Origin: a virus
Reading direction: 5' to 3' (one strand)
DNA: 20,602 bases
Virus record (IMG/VR): IMGVR_UViG_3300043773_000078
Location: 1 to 20,602 of that record
Shown: positions 1,779 to 19,551 of the stretch, in pieces
Position numbering within the stretch: position 1 is the first letter of the stretch
How the letters are laid out: each line of letters begins with the position of its first letter
Notes under the pieces: model-generated
Told to the model about the DNA's origin: nothing
What the model saw: the letters and a program-made list of their open reading frames with translations, nothing else
Database searches by the model: none
Position numbers and translations under genes: made by a program

Positions 1779-3752
1779 ATGGAATTCCAAGAACCTAGTG
1801 ACTCAGACAAAGAGATAGTTAACTTTGTTGTCAACCATTGTGATAGATGGAGGGATTGGAGAGATGTCAATTGCCTTGATGATTGGCTAGAATACGAGCG
1901 CATCTTCAATGGTGAATGGGATGCCCAAGACAAAACCCGTGAATCCGAGCGTTCAAGAATCGTTACACCCGCTACCCAACAAGCCGTAGAGACACGCCAT
2001 GCTGAGATCATGGAAGCTATCTTCGGTCAGGGTGAGTTCTTTGACATTCAAGACGATATTCGTGATGTCAATGGTAGCCCTCTAGATGTTGCTGCCATCA
2101 AAGCACAACTGATGGAAGACTTTAAAGTAGACAAGATTCGCAAGTCTATTGACCAGATTGAGCTGTTGGCAGAAATCTATGGTACGGGCATCGGTGAGAT
2201 TGTTGTCAAAACAGAGAAAGTATTTGTCCCCGCTACTCAGGCAATACCTGGTCAAATGGGACAAGCCGCTATCGGAGTAGTAGAACAAGACCGCATTGCA
2301 GTCAAGATTGTTCCTGTTAACCCCCGTAACTTCCTGTTTGACCCCAATGGAACATCTATTGATGACTGTATGGGTGTTGCTATTGAGAAGTACGTCTCTA
2401 TTCACAAGGTCGTTAAAGGTCAAGAAGAAGGCATCTACCGCAAGGTAAAGGTCGGTACTGACTCGATGGACACAGACTTAGAGCCTACACAAGAAGTCTC
2501 CCAGTACGAAGACGATAAAGTTAAACTTTTGACTTACTATGGTTTAGTTCCCCGTGAGTATCTTGAAGAACTAGAGAATGAAGAAAATGGCGAAGTGGAA
2601 GACTTATTCCCTGAAGACAGTATTCAGGATGAGTATTCCGATCTGGTCGAGGCTATTGTCGTTATCGCCAATGATGGTGTTCTTCTGAAAGCAGAAAAGA
2701 ACCCATACATGATGAAAGACCGCCCAATTCTTGCTTATCAGGACGATACAGTTCCTAATCGCTTGTTGGGTCGTGGCACTGTTGAGAAGGCTTACAACTC
2801 ACAAAAAGCCATAGATGCCCAAGTTCGTTCACACTTAGATTCACTAGCCCTCACAACTAGCCCAATGATGGCTATGGATGCTACCCGCCTACCAAGGGGT
2901 GCTAAGTTTGAAGTAAAGCCAGGTAAAGCAATCCTGACAAACGGCAATCCCAATGAGATTTTATTCCCGTTCAAGTTCGGCAATACTGATGGTTCTAACC
3001 TGACTACTGCCAAAGAGTTTGAGCGTATGCTTTTGATGGCAACAGGCACTCTTGACTCTCAGGGAATGGTTACTGCTGTCTCCAGAGATGCGGGTCAGGG
3101 TGGTATTTCGATGGCTACTGCCTCGATTATCAAGAAATACAAGCGTACCTTGGTGAACTTCCAAGAGGATTTCATGATCCCCTTCATTACCAAAGCCGCC
3201 TATCGCTATATGCAGTTCGATCCAGAGCGTTACCCTACTGTGGACATGAAGTTCATTCCCACGGCAGCGCTTGGTATCATCGCTAGAGAGCATGAGCAAC
3301 AACAGTTCATTGCGCTACTCCAGACTCTTGGCCCGAATACTCCTGTTTTGCCTATCATTTTGAAGGGCATCATGGCTAATTCTTCTCTGTCAAACAGATT
3401 TGAGTTGATTGAGATGCTAGACAAGATGTCTCAAGTTGATCCACAGGCTCAACAAGCGGCTCAGATGCAACAACAAATGGCTATGCAACTGGCTCAAGCA
3501 CAGATTGCTGTCCAAACTACGCAAGCAGAGCAGAACAAGGCTGAAGCGCAAAAGTTATTGACTGAAGCGCAATTGATGCCTATTGAGTTGCAAGCAAAGA
3601 GCATGGCGGCTAATACCAAGAACCTCCCAACTGATGACGCTTTAGCTTCACGAGAGTTTGATAAGCGTGTCAAAGTTGCTGAATTAATGCTTAAAGAAGC
3701 TGATATTCAGAACAAGGCTAAGATTGTTGAAAAACAGATGACTAGACAATGA
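1779..3752 (+). CDS. Portal protein (podovirus type)
   Basis: The 657-residue product directly follows the large terminase, the usual place for the dodecameric portal through which DNA enters and leaves the head. The N-terminus is rich in Trp and acidic residues (CDRWRDWRDVNCLDDWLEYE, 21-40), followed by a conserved-looking RSRIVTPATQQAVETRHAEI stretch near 58-77, YGTGIGEIVVKTEK near 134-147 and NPRNFLFDP near 181-189. A central part carries LLGRGTVEKAYNSQKAIDAQ. The last roughly 110 residues are Gln/Ala-rich and predicted helical (QAQQAAQMQQQMAMQLAQAQ), like the long helical barrel seen in P22-type portals. Length fits large podovirus portals (600-730). There is little Shine-Dalgarno signal beyond GGGG/AAGA before the start, so coupling to the terminase stop is plausible. 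Its stop overlaps the next start by ATGA. Confidence 0.9.
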   Translation: MEFQEPSDSDKEIVNFVVNHCDRWRDWRDVNCLDDWLEYERIFNGEWDAQDKTRESERSRIVTPATQQAVETRHAEIMEAIFGQGEFFDIQDDIRDVNGSPLDVAAIKAQLMEDFKVDKIRKSIDQIELLAEIYGTGIGEIVVKTEKVFVPATQAIPGQMGQAAIGVVEQDRIAVKIVPVNPRNFLFDPNGTSIDDCMGVAIEKYVSIHKVVKGQEEGIYRKVKVGTDSMDTDLEPTQEVSQYEDDKVKLLTYYGLVPREYLEELENEENGEVEDLFPEDSIQDEYSDLVEAIVVIANDGVLLKAEKNPYMMKDRPILAYQDDTVPNRLLGRGTVEKAYNSQKAIDAQVRSHLDSLALTTSPMMAMDATRLPRGAKFEVKPGKAILTNGNPNEILFPFKFGNTDGSNLTTAKEFERMLLMATGTLDSQGMVTAVSRDAGQGGISMATASIIKKYKRTLVNFQEDFMIPFITKAAYRYMQFDPERYPTVDMKFIPTAALGIIAREHEQQQFIALLQTLGPNTPVLPIILKGIMANSSLSNRFELIEMLDKMSQVDPQAQQAAQMQQQMAMQLAQAQIAVQTTQAEQNKAEAQKLLTEAQLMPIELQAKSMAANTKNLPTDDALASREFDKRVKVAELMLKEADIQNKAKIVEKQMTRQ

Positions 3753-3988
3753 ATCCAGAACTTCAGAAGTACTACGAAGAGCGTTTTTCCATGATGTCCA
3801 CTCAAGGGTGGATAGATTTAATGGAAGATGTTGACAAAATAATAGAGCCTTTGAATAATATCTCAACAATTGCAGACGAAAAAAGTCTACAATTCAGAAA
3901 AGGCGAGTATTCAATACTAATTTGGCTGAAGAACTTAAAACAAGTCAGCGAAAGAGCATTTGAGGACTTAAATGAGAAGAATGTATGA
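3749..3988 (+). CDS. Conserved phage protein of unknown function (79 aa)
   Basis: It starts in the ATGA that ends the portal gene, so it is probably translated by coupled re-initiation. The product is acidic and helical (MNPELQKYYEERFSMMSTQG, then WIDLMEDVDKIIEPLNN, then WLKNLKQVSERAFEDL), with no cysteines and no membrane segment. Small proteins of this style recur beside podovirus portal genes. I know of no assigned role. Position between portal and scaffold suggests a virion-assembly or packaging accessory. It overlaps the next gene by 17 bases. Confidence 0.8.
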   Translation: MNPELQKYYEERFSMMSTQGWIDLMEDVDKIIEPLNNISTIADEKSLQFRKGEYSILIWLKNLKQVSERAFEDLNEKNV

Positions 3989-4199
3989 ATTTGCCTGTAT
4001 AAACGGGCATAAGACAGAGAGATTTGTTGATTATGAGTTAACAAGTCTTGTGTGTGATTGTGGTGAGGAGACTCATCGCATTTTATCTGCACCAGCTTTT
4101 AAGCTAGAAGGGTGGTCTGGGACATTTCCATCAGCGCATGGAAGGTTCGAGAAAAGTCACTTGGATAGATTAAAGGCCGAGCAGAAACTCAACTCATAA
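3972..4199 (+). CDS. FmdB-like zinc-ribbon miniprotein (75 aa)
   Basis: The N-terminus reads MRRMYEFACINGHKTERF and is followed by LVCDCGEETHRIL. Cys9, His13, Cys28 and Cys30 can form one metal site, an atypical CxxxH/CxC arrangement of the FmdB-type zinc ribbon, a fold found in small phage and bacterial proteins. The C-terminal part (LEGWSGTFPSAHGRFEKSHL) is polar and probably extended. ATG 3972 has GAGGA five bases upstream and ATG 3981 (residue 4) has GAGAAG, so either could be the start; the protein core is unchanged. It lies between portal and scaffold. A DNA-, RNA- or protein-binding function is possible but unproven. Confidence 0.8.
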   Translation: MRRMYEFACINGHKTERFVDYELTSLVCDCGEETHRILSAPAFKLEGWSGTFPSAHGRFEKSHLDRLKAEQKLNS

Positions 4200-4217
4200 G
4201 CAATTATGCCGAGTTGA
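4189..4217 (+). other. RNA hairpin with GCAA tetraloop at gene junction
   Basis: TCAACTC (4189-4195) pairs with GAGTTGA (4211-4217), and inside it ATAA (4196-4199) pairs with TTAT (4204-4207) around a GCAA loop, leaving GCC (4208-4210) as a bulge. The structure overlaps the stop codon of the zinc-ribbon gene and sits about 40 bases before the scaffold start. No U-run follows, so it is not a classical terminator. It could be an mRNA processing or stability element, or chance. Confidence 0.4.
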
Positions 4218-4256
4218 ATCTCCTACAACCGATTGACGGCAGGAAAAGGAAAAAGT

Positions 4257-4997
4257 ATGTTGATTGATGATGACAAAGAAGAGTTGGGTGAGTTAGAGAT
4301 TGAGCAGCAGAAGATCGAGCAAAAGCCTGAACTTCCTGAGAAATACAGGGATAAAAGTTTAGACGACATTGTGAGGATGCACCAAGAGGCTGAAAAGCTA
4401 ATTGGAAAGCAAGCACAAGAGGTAGGCGAGGTCAGAAAGTTAGCCGATGAACTTATCAAACAGAACCTTGGTTCACGACAACAGACTAGACAGGAAGAGC
4501 CTGAAGTAGATTTCTTTGAGAATCCACAGAAGGCAGTTCAAAGGACTGTTGATAATCACCCAGACATCCTAGCGGCACGACAAGTTACGTTAGAAATGAA
4601 AAGGTCACAGATTCAGCAAAGGTTAGCGCAAGAACATCCCGACTTTGGAGACATCGCCAAAGATCAGGACTTTGCAAATTGGGTTAAATCTAGCCCTATT
4701 CGCATTAAGATTTTTGAGCAAGCCGATTCTGGATATGATTTCGACTCAGCCAATGAATTGCTATCTACCTATAAACAGCTACGTTCTGTTAAACAGAAGC
4801 AAACGAGTGATGATGGCGAGGTAACTCGCAAGCAGAACTTAAAGGCAGTAGGTGTTGATATAGGTGGTTCTGGTGAATCATCAAAGAAGGTATACAGAAG
4901 GGCTGACCTTATTCGGCTCAAAATGCAAGACCCAACTAGATATGATGCTTTAAGTGATGAAATCATGCAAGCCTATCAAGAGGGTCGGGTTCGTTAA
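4257..4997 (+). CDS. Capsid scaffolding protein
   Basis: The 246-residue product is hydrophilic and charged, lies immediately before the major capsid gene and has the character of phage scaffolding proteins, which guide shell assembly and then leave. The N-terminal third is acidic (DDDKEELGELEIEQQKIEQ), then a long predicted helix follows (DIVRMHQEAEKLIGKQAQEV), then a variable middle with FFENPQKAVQRTVDNHPDI. The C-terminal end is a basic helical segment (RRADLIRLKMQDPTRYDAL) of the sort that binds coat protein in P22-like systems. I chose ATG 4257 because GGAAAAGGA lies just upstream; the longer TTG-started form at 4233 has no such signal. No protease motif is visible, so it is not a protease-scaffold fusion. 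Confidence 0.87.
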   Translation: MLIDDDKEELGELEIEQQKIEQKPELPEKYRDKSLDDIVRMHQEAEKLIGKQAQEVGEVRKLADELIKQNLGSRQQTRQEEPEVDFFENPQKAVQRTVDNHPDILAARQVTLEMKRSQIQQRLAQEHPDFGDIAKDQDFANWVKSSPIRIKIFEQADSGYDFDSANELLSTYKQLRSVKQKQTSDDGEVTRKQNLKAVGVDIGGSGESSKKVYRRADLIRLKMQDPTRYDALSDEIMQAYQEGRVR

Positions 4998-5002
4998 ACT
5001 TT

Positions 5003-5021
5003 AGGAGATTTAATTATGGCA
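5003..5021 (+). promoter_or_regulatory. Strong RBS/leader of capsid gene (copy 1)
   Basis: AGGAGATTTAATTATGGCA holds a full AGGAG Shine-Dalgarno 8 bases before the capsid ATG, with an A/T-only spacer. The identical 19 bases recur at 6036-6054 before the next gene. The signal is far stronger than those of most genes in the window, as expected for the most abundant virion protein. Confidence 0.8.
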
Positions 5022-5990
5022 TATCCAACACCAGCGGTTACAGTAACAACCGCAGAAAAATTCATCCCAGAAATCTGGTCAGATGAAATCGTAGCCGCAT
5101 ACAAGAAAAACCTTGTATTGGCTAACATCGTAATGAAGATGAACTTCAAGGGCAAGAAAGGTGACACTGTTCACATTCCCGCCCCTACCCGTGGTTCAGC
5201 TTCAGCAAAAGCGGCATCTACTGCCGTTACTCTGATTGCCGATACTGAGACAGAAGTTTTGGTTAACATTAACAAGCACTTTGAGTACTCACGTTTCATC
5301 GAGGACATCGTTGAAGCACAAGCCTTGAATAGCTTGCGCCAGTTCTACACTGCTGATGCGGGCTATGCGCTTGCCAAGCAAGTAGACACTAGCTTGATCC
5401 AGTTGGGTCGTGTTGCTAATGGTGGCTCTACAGGCGCACGTTACGGCTCTGCCTTCATTGGTGGTGACGGCACAACCGCTTTTGACTACACAGCTAACAC
5501 CAATACTGGTAATGCTTCTGCTCTGACTGATGCGGCTATTCGTCGTACTATTCAGCGTTTGGATGACAATGACACTCCTATGGATGGTCGCTTCTTTGTT
5601 ATTCCTCCTTCAAGCCGTAATACGTTGATGGGTCTTTCCCGTTACACAGAACAGGCTTTTGTGGGCAATGGCAATGCAATCCGCACTGGTGAAATCGGCA
5701 ACCTATATGGTATCCCCGTGTTCACATCTAGCAATGCTGACTCTGCATCTGCAACTGCTGCTTTCCCAACAAGCGGTTCTGCTATTGCCCGTGTCTGTTT
5801 GATGGGTCACAAGGACGCTATGGTTTTGGTTGAGCAAGTGGGCATCCGTTCACAAACTCAGTACAAACAAGACTACTTGGCTACTTTGTTCACATCTGAC
5901 ACGCTGTATGGTGTTTCCGCACTTCGTTCAGCCGCCACAACTGGTGAGGCTTTGTCTTCTTCCATGTTTGCCTTGGTTGTTCCTTCTTGA
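5016..5990 (+). CDS. Major capsid protein (HK97-fold type)
   Basis: The 324-residue product follows the scaffold and has the best ribosome-binding site in the window. The N-terminus (EKFIPEIWSDEIVAAYKKNL) resembles the N-arm and spine of coat proteins in which a free scaffold protein is used. It is followed by KGDTVHIPAPTRG (E-loop/P-domain style), then an axial-domain-like region with DGRFFVIPPSSRNTLMGL, and a C-terminal part with ARVCLMGHKDAMVLVEQVGI and DTLYGVSALR. This order of elements is typical of tailed-phage coat proteins around 320-350 residues. The family call rests on these features and on context, and an exact Pfam family is not assigned. A strong intrinsic terminator lies 12 bases past the stop. 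Confidence 0.93.
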   Translation: MAYPTPAVTVTTAEKFIPEIWSDEIVAAYKKNLVLANIVMKMNFKGKKGDTVHIPAPTRGSASAKAASTAVTLIADTETEVLVNINKHFEYSRFIEDIVEAQALNSLRQFYTADAGYALAKQVDTSLIQLGRVANGGSTGARYGSAFIGGDGTTAFDYTANTNTGNASALTDAAIRRTIQRLDDNDTPMDGRFFVIPPSSRNTLMGLSRYTEQAFVGNGNAIRTGEIGNLYGIPVFTSSNADSASATAAFPTSGSAIARVCLMGHKDAMVLVEQVGIRSQTQYKQDYLATLFTSDTLYGVSALRSAATTGEALSSSMFALVVPS

Positions 5991-6001
5991 TAACAACCTT
6001 T

Positions 6002-6029
6002 CCCCTCGCCTTCGGGTGGGGGGTTTTTT
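6002..6029 (+). terminator. Intrinsic terminator after major capsid gene
   Basis: CCCCTCGCC (6002-6010) pairs over all nine positions, two as G-U, with GGTGGGGGG (6015-6023) around the very stable UUCG tetraloop closed by C-G, and is followed directly by six T (6024-6029). It probably ends or attenuates most capsid transcripts and protects their 3' ends. Genes downstream must be reached by read-through or by a promoter I cannot see. Confidence 0.93.
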
Positions 6030-6035
6030 ACATTA

Positions 6036-6054
6036 AGGAGATTTAATTATGGCA
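6036..6054 (+). promoter_or_regulatory. Strong RBS/leader of decoration gene (copy 2)
   Basis: This is the same 19 bases as at 5003-5021, covering Shine-Dalgarno, A/T spacer, ATG and the first GCA codon-like bases. It begins only seven bases after the terminator U-run, too short a space for a separate promoter. Confidence 0.75.
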
Positions 6055-6372
6055 GCAGCAACAGCAGTTACTTCCCGTAGGGGAAATGACCAATTCCGTG
6101 GTTTGTTTTCAGACACTTGGGAAGTTTCTTGTACCCTCGATAGCGCATCAGTACTTACTACTGCAACCGCTACGGATACAGTGACAGTTCCAGGCGTTGC
6201 TTTGGGCGACATGGTTATCGGTATGTCTGTTGGCGTTTCTGAGGCAGGTTTGGTTCGTAGAGCCTATGTTTCAGCCGCTAATACAGTTACTATCGCAACC
6301 TACAATCCTACAGCAGGTACTGTAGACTTGGCATCAACTACATTGACCTTAATCATTGGTCGTGCAGTTTAA
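6049..6372 (+). CDS. Probable capsid decoration/head protein (107 aa)
   Basis: The product is small, nearly free of long helices and rich in Thr, Val and Ala. Its C-terminal half reads ALGDMVIGMSVGVSEAGLVR then VSAANTVTIATYNPTAG then TLTLIIGRAV, a beta-strand pattern shared with many short phage head-decoration or fibre-associated domains. The position directly after the major capsid gene and the identical strong leader suggest a protein made in large amounts on the virion surface. It stands alone between two strong terminators. I infer decoration or cement function; a head-completion role is the alternative. It has no signal peptide or cysteine pair of note. Confidence 0.8.
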   Translation: MAAATAVTSRRGNDQFRGLFSDTWEVSCTLDSASVLTTATATDTVTVPGVALGDMVIGMSVGVSEAGLVRRAYVSAANTVTIATYNPTAGTVDLASTTLTLIIGRAV

Positions 6373-6374
6373 TT

Positions 6375-6401
6375 AAAGGGGGCTAATACCCCCCTTTTTT
6401 T
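6375..6401 (+). terminator. Intrinsic terminator after decoration gene
   Basis: AAAGGGGG (6375-6382) pairs with CCCCCTTT (6390-6397) around a seven-base loop, and the T-run continues to 6401. The run of A before the stem would make it partly active in the opposite direction too. It lies three bases after the decoration-gene stop and ten before the next start. Confidence 0.9.
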
Positions 6402-6410
6402 GGAGTCCTT

Positions 6411-6605
6411 ATGGCTACTTTTCGTTGTTTACAGTCGGGAAACACAGTAACTTTCACCTATCAGCATGATATTGATAGCATGAAAGGTCACGAAGGATAC
6501 GTCAGAATTGATGAAGTTAAAGAAGAAACTTCTGAAAAGCAAATAGTCTTGCAACCTCCAGTACCTGTTAAGAAGATGGGTCGTCCAAGGAAATCAAATG
6601 TCTGA
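6411..6605 (+). CDS. Small protein with C-terminal GRPRK basic motif
   Basis: This 64-residue product starts after the second terminator, with GGAG (6402-6405) upstream. The N-terminal part is beta-like (FRCLQSGNTVTFTYQHDIDS, then GHEGYVRIDE). The C-terminus ends KKMGRPRKSNV, an AT-hook-like minor-groove-binding sequence. One cysteine is present, so a zinc site is unlikely. Proteins of this form are common in podovirus head regions, with no role that I can state. A DNA-contacting virion or packaging protein is possible. It overlaps the next gene by 8 bases. Confidence 0.75.
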   Translation: MATFRCLQSGNTVTFTYQHDIDSMKGHEGYVRIDEVKEETSEKQIVLQPPVPVKKMGRPRKSNV

Positions 6606-7280: not shown

Positions 7281-7427
7281 ATGAAACAAGGTCTTTACGC
7301 TAACATCAATGCCAAACAAGAACGTATCAAAGCGGGTTCTAAGGAAAAGATGCGTAAGGTTGGCTCTAAAGGTGCTCCTACTGAGGCGGCATTTAAGGCT
7401 GCGGCTAAGACCGCAAAGAAGAAATGA
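7281..7427 (+). CDS. 48-aa basic miniprotein, recurrent in phages
   Basis: I start it at ATG 7281, one base after the previous stop. Upstream in-frame starts would run back through the preceding gene. The product begins MKQGLYANINAKQERIKAGS and ends in an Ala/Lys helix (EAAFKAAAKTAKKK). The pattern of YANI, then RIKAGS, then KMRKVGSKGAPT, is one I recognise as recurring in many podovirus genomes, without known function. The high positive charge suggests nucleic-acid or capsid-interior contact. Its stop overlaps the next start (ATGA). Confidence 0.8.
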   Translation: MKQGLYANINAKQERIKAGSKEKMRKVGSKGAPTEAAFKAAAKTAKKK

Positions 7428-7717
7428 AATCTCCTGTTTGGCAAACAAAAGAAGGAAAAAACCCCAAGGGGGGCTTGAATGCCAAAGGAAGAGCATCGTA
7501 TAATGCAGAAACGGGTGGAAATTTAAAACCACCAGTCAAGTCGGGAGATAACCCTCGTAGGGCATCCTTTTTAGCACGAATGGGCAATATGCCTGGCGCT
7601 GAGATGAAAGATGGAAAGCCTACTAGACTCCTTCTATCTCTTAGAGCTTGGGGCGCAACGTCCAAGGAAGACGCTAAAGCTAAAGCTAAAGCGATCTCTA
7701 AGAGGAATATGAAGTGA
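7424..7717 (+). CDS. DUF6321-like basic phage protein (97 aa)
   Basis: It reads WQTKEGKNPKGGLNAKGRAS then LKPPVKSGDNPRRASFLARM then PTRLLLSLRAWGATSKEDA and ends in a Lys/Ala helix. This highly conserved phage pattern matches what I remember of DUF6321, though the family number should be confirmed. The protein is rich in Lys/Arg and Gly, with a short hydrophobic helix (RLLLSLRAW). It is coupled to the preceding miniprotein by ATGA and to the next gene by GTGA. Function is unknown. It travels with head and connector genes, which suggests a virion or assembly role. Confidence 0.82.
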   Translation: MKSPVWQTKEGKNPKGGLNAKGRASYNAETGGNLKPPVKSGDNPRRASFLARMGNMPGAEMKDGKPTRLLLSLRAWGATSKEDAKAKAKAISKRNMK

Positions 7718-17043: not shown

Positions 17044-19551
17044 ATGGCTGATTTAACATCAATTCTTTCTGACCCAAACTACGTTAATGCAAATGAAGCC
17101 ACTAAAAAGGCTATCTTTGAGAAGTTTTCTTCTCAAGACCCAAATTTTGTAAACGCAAATCCTGAAACGCAAGCGGCTATTAGAAATAAGTTTGGCGTAT
17201 CTACTTTTGAAACTACACCTGAAGGTGCGGCAATTGGTAATCCATTGGCGGCAAGAAAATATGGTGGCCCTAAAGACACTAGCCGCATAGACCCTTTGAT
17301 GGCAATAGGCGGTGCGGGAACAGTTGGCACGTTTATGGGTGCAGTTGCACCTGAACTTTTACAAGGTGCGGCAACAGCAACTAGGGGTGTCCCCGCTTTA
17401 GCTCCTTTAAGTTCTGGACTTAGCCTCATGGCAGCGGCTACAAGACAGGCGGGTCGAGGAGTTAGCAGTATAGCGGGAGGTGTTAGCGGTTTATCTAGCG
17501 AAACAGCGGGACAAGTTGCCGAAGGAATGGGTGCAAGCGCACCAGTAGCTGAAGCGGCTCGACTTGTTGGTGGTGCTGTAACGCCTGAACTTGGGCCTTT
17601 AGCTTTGCAAATAGCAAGATTTACAGTTTCTGGTGCACCACAACAAGCCGCCATAAGTTTTGCAAAATCACTTTTAAATAAACTGAAAGAGGGTCAGTTA
17701 TCTCCTACAGAACAAAAAGAACTTCTTGAAATACAGTCCAGAATTATGGGCGAACAAGAGCCTAACAAAGCATTAAAACTTATTGGCGATGAGATGGAGA
17801 AGGCGGCTTTAAACATAAGGTCTACTGCGGCTCTTAAAGCATCTAGTTTGCACTCAAATGCCGCTGAAGTAGCTCGTAATGCCCGTTTAGCCGCTGATGC
17901 AGAATTAGCAAAAGTGCCTGGTCAACAAGCCGATATTCAAGCACAACAAGCATATTTAAAACAACTACAAGCACAAACAAGAACTGCGGGTGAAAACACA
18001 GTTGCCGCAATTGGAGAAGCTAAACCTTTGTCGGTCATAGGTTCAGAATTGCAACAAGCTGCTGCTCAACGTCAAAATGAATTAAGAACAGCCGCATCTG
18101 AAGCGTACAAACAAACACAAAGCGAAGTAAATAGCATTGTTTCTAAGTTAGAAAGTTCTGGTGAGTCGGTTACAAATTTATCTTCTTACAAAACATTAGT
18201 AGATCTTTTAAAACAGGAATTAAAACCAGGTGTTCACTCACCAGATGTGGCTAAAGGTTATCAAAAAATACTTGACCAAATAACTGTAAAAAAGAAGCCT
18301 GACGTTGCGCCTACATCACTTGGAGACCTTCTTGCTAAAGCTATAGAAGCTGAACCAAAAGAGCCACCAGCACTACCTACTTTTCAAGCTATTGACGATG
18401 CTAGACGTTTGTTAGGTGAAGCGTTTAGGGGCGAGGCAGACGAAGGCTATAAGGCAATTGGAAATACTGCTCAAAAAAAGTTTTATGGGTTGGTGTCACA
18501 AGTTCAAAAAGATTTTGCGGGAGAGCCACAAGCTAAATTGTTAACGCAATATGCTGATTCACGGCCTGGACTTGAAATATTTGGCTCTAAAGCTGGCACT
18601 AAATTAACTGGTCTTGACAAGGGTGCGTTATCGCAATTTGCTAGTGATCCTGCAAATATACCTAAAGTGTTTTTCTCTAGCCCAAAAATGTTTGCATCTT
18701 TAGTAGAGTTAGTTGGCGATAAAGCATTGGCAACACAAGCGGCACAACAATATACAGCTAATGAATTAACGCTAAGAAAAACATCCCGTGAAGTTGGTAC
18801 TTGGATGACAAAAAACCGAGAGTTTTTAAACACAGTACCAGAGATAAAAACATCTGTAATTGCCTATCAAAATTCTTTGCAAAACAGCGAAAGAGAAATA
18901 GCTAACATAGGGTCAAAGATCCAAAAGTTAGGTGGAGAATCAAAGGCAACTGCTTCAACAGCAGCCGCTACTGCAAAACAAATGCTTACCGAAGGTAGAG
19001 CTACTTCTCAAGCACTTACAAAAGAAGCAACTACTGTCAGTAGCGAAAGTGCGGCTTTGGCTGACAAACTATGGAATGGTCGGTCAGGAGAGTTAAAAAA
19101 TGCCCGTGAAGCCATTGAAGGCGGTGATTTAACTAGATGGGCTGCTATTGCGCCAATTATAGAACGCTCACCAGAAGCTAAAACTGCAATTTTTAATGCT
19201 GTAAGACAAGTTACATCTGAAATAGCAACCAATAAAGCGGTAATTCAAAAGTTTAACGAACAGATGCGTCCCGCTTTAGAAAGATTTGGGATGCTGAGTA
19301 AAGAAGAAGCGGATCGAATTGCTGCCGAATTAGTAAAAATCGGGGCTAAATCTGGCTCTGAAGCAGAAAAGTTAGGTTTGATGCGGAGACTAATTCTGCA
19401 AGGTGTAACTGGATATTCTAGTTCCTTGACTAGTCGAGGTACAAACTTTGCATTCATAAGTGCAGTCGATCAAATACCTAAATCATCTGGTATGTTAGGT
19501 GGCCCAATAGCACCGCCTCCTACTCAAAAACAAGGTATGTTGTCTAGGTAG
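17044..19551 (+). CDS. Internal virion protein C (ejection protein)
   Basis: The 835-residue product is the largest in the window. It opens with two tandem copies of a short motif, DPNYVNANEATKKAIFEKF (10-28) and DPNFVNANPETQAAIRNKF (32-50), period 22. A hydrophobic Gly-rich stretch follows (GGAGTVGTFMGAVAPELLQG), then Ala-rich and coiled-coil helical segments (EVARNARLAADAELA, then QAQQAYLKQLQAQTR). The C-terminus is extended and ends GGPIAPPPTQKQGMLSR. No SLT lysozyme motif or protease signature can be seen. Long helix, Ala/Gln-rich and tail-proximal order all point to the third ejection protein. ATG 17044 is chosen because the overlapping ATG at 17039 stops after five codons. Confidence 0.78.
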   Translation: MADLTSILSDPNYVNANEATKKAIFEKFSSQDPNFVNANPETQAAIRNKFGVSTFETTPEGAAIGNPLAARKYGGPKDTSRIDPLMAIGGAGTVGTFMGAVAPELLQGAATATRGVPALAPLSSGLSLMAAATRQAGRGVSSIAGGVSGLSSETAGQVAEGMGASAPVAEAARLVGGAVTPELGPLALQIARFTVSGAPQQAAISFAKSLLNKLKEGQLSPTEQKELLEIQSRIMGEQEPNKALKLIGDEMEKAALNIRSTAALKASSLHSNAAEVARNARLAADAELAKVPGQQADIQAQQAYLKQLQAQTRTAGENTVAAIGEAKPLSVIGSELQQAAAQRQNELRTAASEAYKQTQSEVNSIVSKLESSGESVTNLSSYKTLVDLLKQELKPGVHSPDVAKGYQKILDQITVKKKPDVAPTSLGDLLAKAIEAEPKEPPALPTFQAIDDARRLLGEAFRGEADEGYKAIGNTAQKKFYGLVSQVQKDFAGEPQAKLLTQYADSRPGLEIFGSKAGTKLTGLDKGALSQFASDPANIPKVFFSSPKMFASLVELVGDKALATQAAQQYTANELTLRKTSREVGTWMTKNREFLNTVPEIKTSVIAYQNSLQNSEREIANIGSKIQKLGGESKATASTAAATAKQMLTEGRATSQALTKEATTVSSESAALADKLWNGRSGELKNAREAIEGGDLTRWAAIAPIIERSPEAKTAIFNAVRQVTSEIATNKAVIQKFNEQMRPALERFGMLSKEEADRIAAELVKIGAKSGSEAEKLGLMRRLILQGVTGYSSSLTSRGTNFAFISAVDQIPKSSGMLGGPIAPPPTQKQGMLSR

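Follow-up and report, generated by a model that had tools for sequence, protein, structure and literature searches.

The locus studied here raises the question of how a gene that is enclosed between two terminator-like hairpins is expressed, and of what these hairpins do to the genes that follow. The window, by which we mean the whole stretch of DNA that was analysed, is the whole of a virus record of 20,602 bases. It encodes the virion module of a tailed phage, with terminase, portal, scaffold, capsid, small genes, and tail genes. In Pfam, the portal and the adaptor are similar to their counterparts in phage SU10, and the capsid protein shares 26-36% identity with its relatives in podoviruses of cyanobacteria, Pf-WMP3 among them. 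One hairpin (T1) follows the capsid gene and the other (T2) follows a small gene encoding 107 residues (Table 1). The phages with this two-terminator arrangement are a freshwater family.

The first-pass annotation of this DNA had placed a 9-bp UUCG terminator after the capsid gene, and such an element is indeed present at 6002-6029, with a run of six Us. The capsid stop codon lies at 5988-5990, the T1 hairpin, CCCCTCGCC-TTCG-GGTGGGGGG, at 6002-6023, and T6 at 6024-6029. In T2, the core GGGGG-CTAATA-CCCCC spans 6378-6393, the outer pairs reach 6375-6397, and the run of seven Ts (6395-6401) adjoins with zero bases between them the GGAG at 6402-6405, the Shine-Dalgarno of the next gene. The gap between the T-run of T1 and the AGGAG of the small gene, whose ATG is at 6049, is as short as first described, although it counts 6 bases and not about seven. 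The leader AGGAGATTTAATTATGGC is common to the capsid gene (5004-5018) and the small gene (6034-6051).

Table 1. Features of the virion module discussed in the text (positions are those of the window).
Feature	Position	Strand	Evidence or context
Candidate internal promoter, TTGACA-17-AATAAT	3831-3859	+	Upstream of scaffold and capsid genes, within gene 3749-3988
Structured leader RNA of the scaffold gene	4191-4256	+	Covarying hairpin 4191-4215, UCUCCUA 4219-4225, GGCAGGA 4238-4244
Putative scaffold protein gene	4257-4997	+	phrog_19777 head scaffolding protein (E 2e-4), phrog_13678 (E 2e-15)
Major capsid protein gene	5016-5990	+	phrog_267 major head protein (E 4e-51); PF19821; solved capsid chain 9jwb_A (E 2e-33)
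Predicted terminator T1: 9-bp stem, UUCG loop, U6	6002-6029	+	Sequence, folding, score; in 130/132 relatives
Shine-Dalgarno AGGAG of the small gene	6036-6040	+	Sequence
Small gene (107 aa), probable capsid decoration protein	6049-6372	+	Alignment, AlphaFold model, weak fold matches, position after capsid gene
Predicted terminator T2: G5/C5 stem and 3 outer pairs, loop, U7	6375-6401	+	Sequence, folding, score; in 129/132 relatives
Small gene, first after T2	6411-6605	+	Adjoins capsid gene in 5 loci without decoration gene
Candidate promoter, TTGAAT-18-TATAAT	7475-7504	+	Downstream of T2, within gene 7424-7717, ahead of tail genes

Both elements show a G+C-rich stem-loop and a U-run directly after the stem (U6 and U7), as expected of intrinsic terminators. 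Folding gave -17.7 kcal/mol for T1, which 0 of 200 shuffles equalled, and -15.0 kcal/mol for the T2 region, equalled by 8 of 200; the stem energies in the window are -17.0 and -10.4 kcal/mol, respectively. On a d'Aubenton-Carafa-type score, for which we used our own implementation of the formula, T1 reaches 37.9 and T2 20.3. A loose scan of both strands revealed 28 terminator-like sites, against 18.3 (sd 4.2) in shuffles, and this excess is so small that the bare count of sites means little. A strict test, which demanded four or more Ts in a row, left four sites on the + strand (mean of 0.48 and maximum of 3 in 100 shuffles) and 0 on the - strand. The two + strand sites other than T1 and T2 are intragenic (4059-4080 and 17337-17352). 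Hence, among intergenic sites, only T1 and T2 stand out, by their strength and their place. A scan of the window with Rfam gave no match at the gathering threshold.

Using the small protein and the capsid protein as queries, we gathered relatives from viral contigs. The 239 sequences were reduced to 132 distinct loci having both genes, after leaving out 84 duplicates, 14 sequences lacking the small gene, 3 with too short a stretch after it, 3 not starting from residue 1, and 3 without the capsid gene. These loci are related by descent and their counts are thus not independent. The only two matches in bacterial genome bins (L167 and L168, in MAGs labelled as a proteobacterium and as Actinomycetota) are likely binned phage contigs. 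Both hairpins with their T-tracts were identified in 128 of the 132 loci (T1 in 130, T2 in 129). Their sequences are diverse: there are 35 distinct stem-loops for T1 and 40 for T2, even if the latter list includes four entries (cccctt...gagggg) that are alternative hairpins and not T2. The 5' arm is C-rich throughout in T1 and mostly G-rich in T2, and the loops include UUCG, CUAGU, UUAAUC, CACAA, and others. When pairs are counted outward from the loop, one same distance is occupied by C-G, G-C, A-T, or T-A in different clades. The many different stems with two-sided changes imply that the structure is kept while the sequence changes. A consensus of the gap between the capsid and small genes (gap 1) made with MAFFT and RNAalifold was poor because stem lengths vary.

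The T-runs are conserved to different extents. The strict test recovered T1 in 130 and T2 in 115 of the 132 loci, and only 22 other sites in the 1.06 Mb of the same loci. Of the 130 T1 sites recovered in this way, 129 have five or more Ts after the stem. One clade has an interrupted T2 U-run (UUUCUC), and 17 of the 132 loci fail the strict test at T2; in many relatives the T-run begins 2-3 bases past the stem, which is a weaker design. The scores, which cover 131 of the 132 loci, have medians of 30.7 for T1 and 15.8 for T2, whereas none of 501 random 64-base control segments from the same loci reached 0 (best -17.8). Both terminators had been called strong at first; the word suits T1, and T2 scores lower than T1 in 118 of 131 loci. 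As yardsticks, T7 Tphi scores 22.3, the VIII-III terminator of M13 50.1, and the J-F terminator of phiX174 -10.2. That a terminator such as the latter scores below 0 means that the score ranks designs and is no measure of efficiency.

A second sample of loci was chosen by the sequence of the scaffold leader (Table 1), independently of the small gene. Of its 67 loci, 63 have T1 and 62 the small gene; T2 is present in 50 of 58. In four of the 67 loci (L244, L256, L284, and L338) the T1 hairpin is kept and its U-run is lost, which suggests either an extra role of the hairpin besides termination or weak termination. Among distant relatives of the capsid gene, the region that follows it has a clear terminator in TR020 (score 24.1) and scores -4.3 in A-4L and -11.3 in CHP58. 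The corresponding region of Pf-WMP3 carries a long hairpin and U6 (-16.5 kcal/mol); the loop and a mismatch of this hairpin kept the score from detecting it.

The hairpins without an intact U-run bear on one alternative, in which they are mainly 3' stabilisers. Once RNase processing or partial termination has produced an end, they would protect it from exonucleases and prolong the life of the capsid and decoration messages, and the ratio of products would be set by decay and not by termination. Very stable stems are indeed kept despite a broken U-run at 4 of 67 T1 and, in the strict test, 17 of 132 T2. Furthermore, PMC3335065 reports that terminators both terminate and stabilise, and that the phiX174 transcripts ending at TJ are the more stable ones. 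However, a pure stabiliser has no need of the five or more Ts that nearly always follow the T1 stem. We consider it unlikely that stabilisation is the main function of the hairpins.

We searched from -120 to +20 of the start of the small gene for sigma70-like matches of at least 9/12 and found none in the 132 loci, in line with the initial view that gap 1 has no room for a promoter. Without a promoter-like site in this gap, the small gene must be reached through T1, and from these sequences read-through of T1 (or processing of a longer RNA) seems hard to avoid. That expression of the small gene depends on passing T1, as the first-pass annotation had proposed, is thus supported by the promoter-less gap 1 together with the conserved hairpins that bracket the gene (128 of 132 loci). 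The same dependence on read-through or antitermination had been extended to all later virion genes. This is too strong, given the candidate promoter at 7475-7504, after T2.

We ranked promoter-like sites by their mean match over orthologs in the aligned genes from portal (1779) to 10234, and used 300 permutations of codon columns as a null. The best conserved promoter-like site of the module is at 3831-3859, with a mean of 10.55/12 over 103 orthologs; TTGACA is present in 53 and AATAAT in 48 of 63 distinct segments. The site at 7475-7504 comes second (9.57/12 over 87 orthologs), and the next independent site has 7.95. Its TATAAT is retained by 73 of the 77 distinct segments, at a position where silent changes are open to both codons. 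The best site of the permuted alignments has a 95% quantile of 9.92 and a highest value of 10.61, with 4% reaching 10.0, and the second-best site has a 95% quantile of 9.03. The 7475 site is therefore significant only as second best; it would not be so as best site (16% of the nulls reach 9.5). This site may provide the tail genes, from about 7714 onwards, with a promoter of their own. A scan of synonymous sites showed peaks mostly at gene starts and in the scaffold leader.

We then asked which polymerase transcribes these genes. PF00940, the profile of T7-type RNA polymerases, had no match in 22 relatives, most of whose records may be fragments, nor in A-4L and Pf-WMP3; 14 control genomes were also negative, and T7, the positive control, matched with E 1e-109. 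A T7-like phage polymerase was thus rejected, and the host polymerase probably transcribes these phages.

Our favoured interpretation, to which we give a probability of about 0.62, is that the two hairpins are intrinsic terminators acting as leaky step-down valves in a late operon transcribed by the host polymerase. Transcripts would enter from an upstream late promoter or from the probable internal promoter at 3831-3859, and most would stop at T1, past the scaffold and capsid genes. Part of them would continue through the decoration gene to T2, and fewer would pass T2. The small gene would then be made in lower amounts than the capsid, and the later genes in still lower amounts unless topped up from 7475-7504, as is probably the case of the distal tail genes. 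In this scheme we infer termination itself and its efficiency, the coupling to ribosomes, both promoters, and the protein ratios. A step-down after the capsid gene and another after the small gene appears to be the simplest reading, and it has precedents. Leaky stops would offer an easy means of producing capsid parts in large numbers and the other parts in smaller ones.

How would polymerases pass the two valves? The median distance from the stop codon to the start of the stem is 11 bases for T1 and 4 bases for T2. In E. coli, according to PMC4824070, a translating ribosome suppressed the terminator tR2 almost fully at short distance, and termination was maximal beyond ~30 bp. Since both hairpins are within this range of suppression, no antiterminator is required. 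A ribosome close behind the polymerase would prevent the hairpin from folding and give read-through without a phage antiterminator, so that actively translated capsid and decoration messages would let a fraction of the polymerases pass. Antitermination, initially given as one of two ways past the terminators, is therefore not a requirement: the distances of 11 and 4 bases, taken with these E. coli data, predict ribosome-dependent read-through. A bolder version, in which T1 and T2 are gated by ribosomes and the polymerase passes only with a ribosome close behind, is one that we hold as tentative and possible at best. If it were true, transcription of the later virion genes would report how briskly the capsid is translated. 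Stoichiometry would then be controlled without a regulator protein, in combination with the leader that would control translation of the scaffold in the same operon.

The naming of the small gene as a decoration gene is plausible from its position, its size, and a model of beta-sandwich fold (AlphaFold, pLDDT 83.7), and it is not confirmed, as no solved structure is a convincing match. The alignment shows an almost invariant N-terminal arm and a variable beta domain. We found no Pfam family and no PDB sequence match that would place the protein in a known decoration family, and no match in phage records with tblastn at E 0.01. In PHROGs, it matches only the C-terminal end of the 806-aa profile phrog_19253 (E 5e-5). 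Fold searches gave weak matches in the PDB (best E 0.029) and, in BFVD, unnamed phage proteins and parts of tail fibres.

The small gene is exchangeable and sometimes absent. The 132 loci comprise 116 of type A and 16 of type B, and the type changes at least 7 times on the tree of the capsid gene (120 loci). Five of the 16 type-B loci are 98% identical to a type-A partner in the capsid gene and 100% in gap 1, and only 61-62% identical in the small gene. This reflects a swap of the outer domain (L146 versus L135, L139, L144, L145, and L147), with a break ~54 bases into the gene. The gene is absent from 5 of 171 loci of the family (L245, L260, L288, L328, and L355), where the capsid gene is separated from the homolog of the gene at 6411 by one G-first, T2-like hairpin. 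Because these loci keep a terminator after the capsid gene, the terminator seems to be the constant part, and the small gene with the second terminator an insertable and exchangeable unit. Such a gene fits a decoration protein, without this being proof. In PMC4378225, decoration proteins are described as often accessory and decoration genes as morons. The small gene is likewise a single, exchangeable gene of the size of decoration genes that is missing in some relatives. As in a moron, it is inserted between genes that are adjacent in relatives, since the five loci join the capsid gene to the homolog of the 6411 gene. A promoter of its own before the gene, another trait of morons, has no counterpart in gap 1 of the 132 loci at 9/12 for sigma70.

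These exchanges also suit a second alternative, which sees the hairpins as leftovers or borders of exchanged cassettes. Every exchangeable gene would then bring its own terminator, with regulation as a secondary effect. The losses that leave a single T2-like hairpin, the type-B genes within type-A flanks, and the repeated changes of type are all in its favour. Yet the boundary of the swap falls within the gene and not at T1, and a terminator that stays behind the capsid gene when the small gene is missing is presumably kept for its own sake. We regard this alternative as rather improbable. The least probable of the alternatives, and one we find very doubtful, is that a Q-like antiterminator carries late transcription through both sites, which would act only on stray or early transcription. 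PMC8022706 mentions the use of Q by lambda-type phages with host polymerase and lists the stopping of spurious transcription among possible roles of intra-operon terminators. Against it, 0 of 20 proteins of the early and lysis regions of one relative (G008, L149 and L150) match a PHROGs antiterminator, a weak argument for these 20 proteins since Q proteins are diverse, and a polymerase made blind to both sites by Q would leave little reason for their strong conservation. A terminal repeat of 123 bases makes the record of this relative look complete. Among the products of its early genes are a replication protein, a RusA-like resolvase, and proteins resembling Sak (annealing) and PAPS reductase.

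The interpretation of the hairpins as leaky valves can be compared with known systems. In filamentous phages, transcribed by the host polymerase, an intrinsic terminator lies directly after the gene of the most abundant coat protein (VIII-III); this is a single site in an unrelated phage, whereas there are two here. In T7, a terminator that stops most transcripts lies right after gene 10, and expression of genes 11 and 12 depends entirely on read-through (PMC5592923). T1 resembles T7 Tphi in directly following the major capsid gene (in 63 of 67 loci of the leader-chosen sample). In contrast, T7 has its own RNA polymerase and one terminator, and here there is no match to PF00940 and two terminators with a small gene between them. 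The polymerase that defines the T7 type having been sought and not found, the present arrangement is no member of that type.

In phiX174, which is transcribed by the host polymerase, each of the genes J, F, G, and H is followed by a leaky terminator, mRNA declines step by step, and the terminators have a stabilising effect (PMC3335065). The phages studied here would likewise pair the host polymerase, as we infer it, with leaky intrinsic terminators behind one virion gene after another. However, phiX174 is an unrelated ssDNA phage in which TF and TG are much weaker hairpins, whereas those found here are strong and close to the stop codons. PMC8022706 describes in phage L a terminator within the late operon, after the procapsid genes, and notes that, while such terminators are not unique, what they do is not known. 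That terminator is similarly near head genes in a late operon of the host polymerase; it is one predicted site in one phage, in contrast to two sites in 128 of 132 relatives. Leaky terminators after capsid genes are thus already known (T7, phiX174, and phage L). The present arrangement would work like these and is ordinary in principle; what is unusual is their doubling, their conservation, and their closeness to stop codons. Our literature search on terminators or read-through after a major capsid and a decoration gene found, within its scope, no paper on this arrangement. The 132 distinct loci provide a natural series, with two sites at fixed places, varied stems, graded predicted strength, and losses of the gene. 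This makes the role of terminators within late operons, as raised in PMC8022706, directly testable. It could show how a small phage that uses the host polymerase sets several hundred capsid copies against few tail copies without a polymerase of its own.

Upstream of the capsid gene, the conserved leader and ribosome-binding site identify ATG 4257, and not TTG 4233, as the true start of the scaffold gene. The leader spans the 57-base gap and the end of the preceding gene. The eight pairs of its hairpin are 96.5% paired over 40 distinct sequences (40 of the 41 distinct parses obtained from 62, as L263 was omitted for its poor parse), with 46 two-sided changes against a mean of 8.7 in shuffles. 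The covariation is 0.443, and slid controls are at most 0.06. Folding of single sequences is no better than that of shuffles, so the structure is seen only by covariation. Comparison of the leader with Rfam gave no match above the gathering threshold and one at chance level. The hairpin is followed by invariant UCUCCUA, a loop segment that resembles an anti-Shine-Dalgarno, and GGCAGGA; UCCU of the former can pair with AGGA of the latter. A scaffold homolog follows in 110 of the 113 loci found by leader sequence, a set that had no filter for false matches of the L318 type and in which the 3 loci without a following scaffold were counted as misses. Translational control of the scaffold is known genetically in P22, and the obvious guess from sequence is that this leader is a possible translational control of the scaffold gene.
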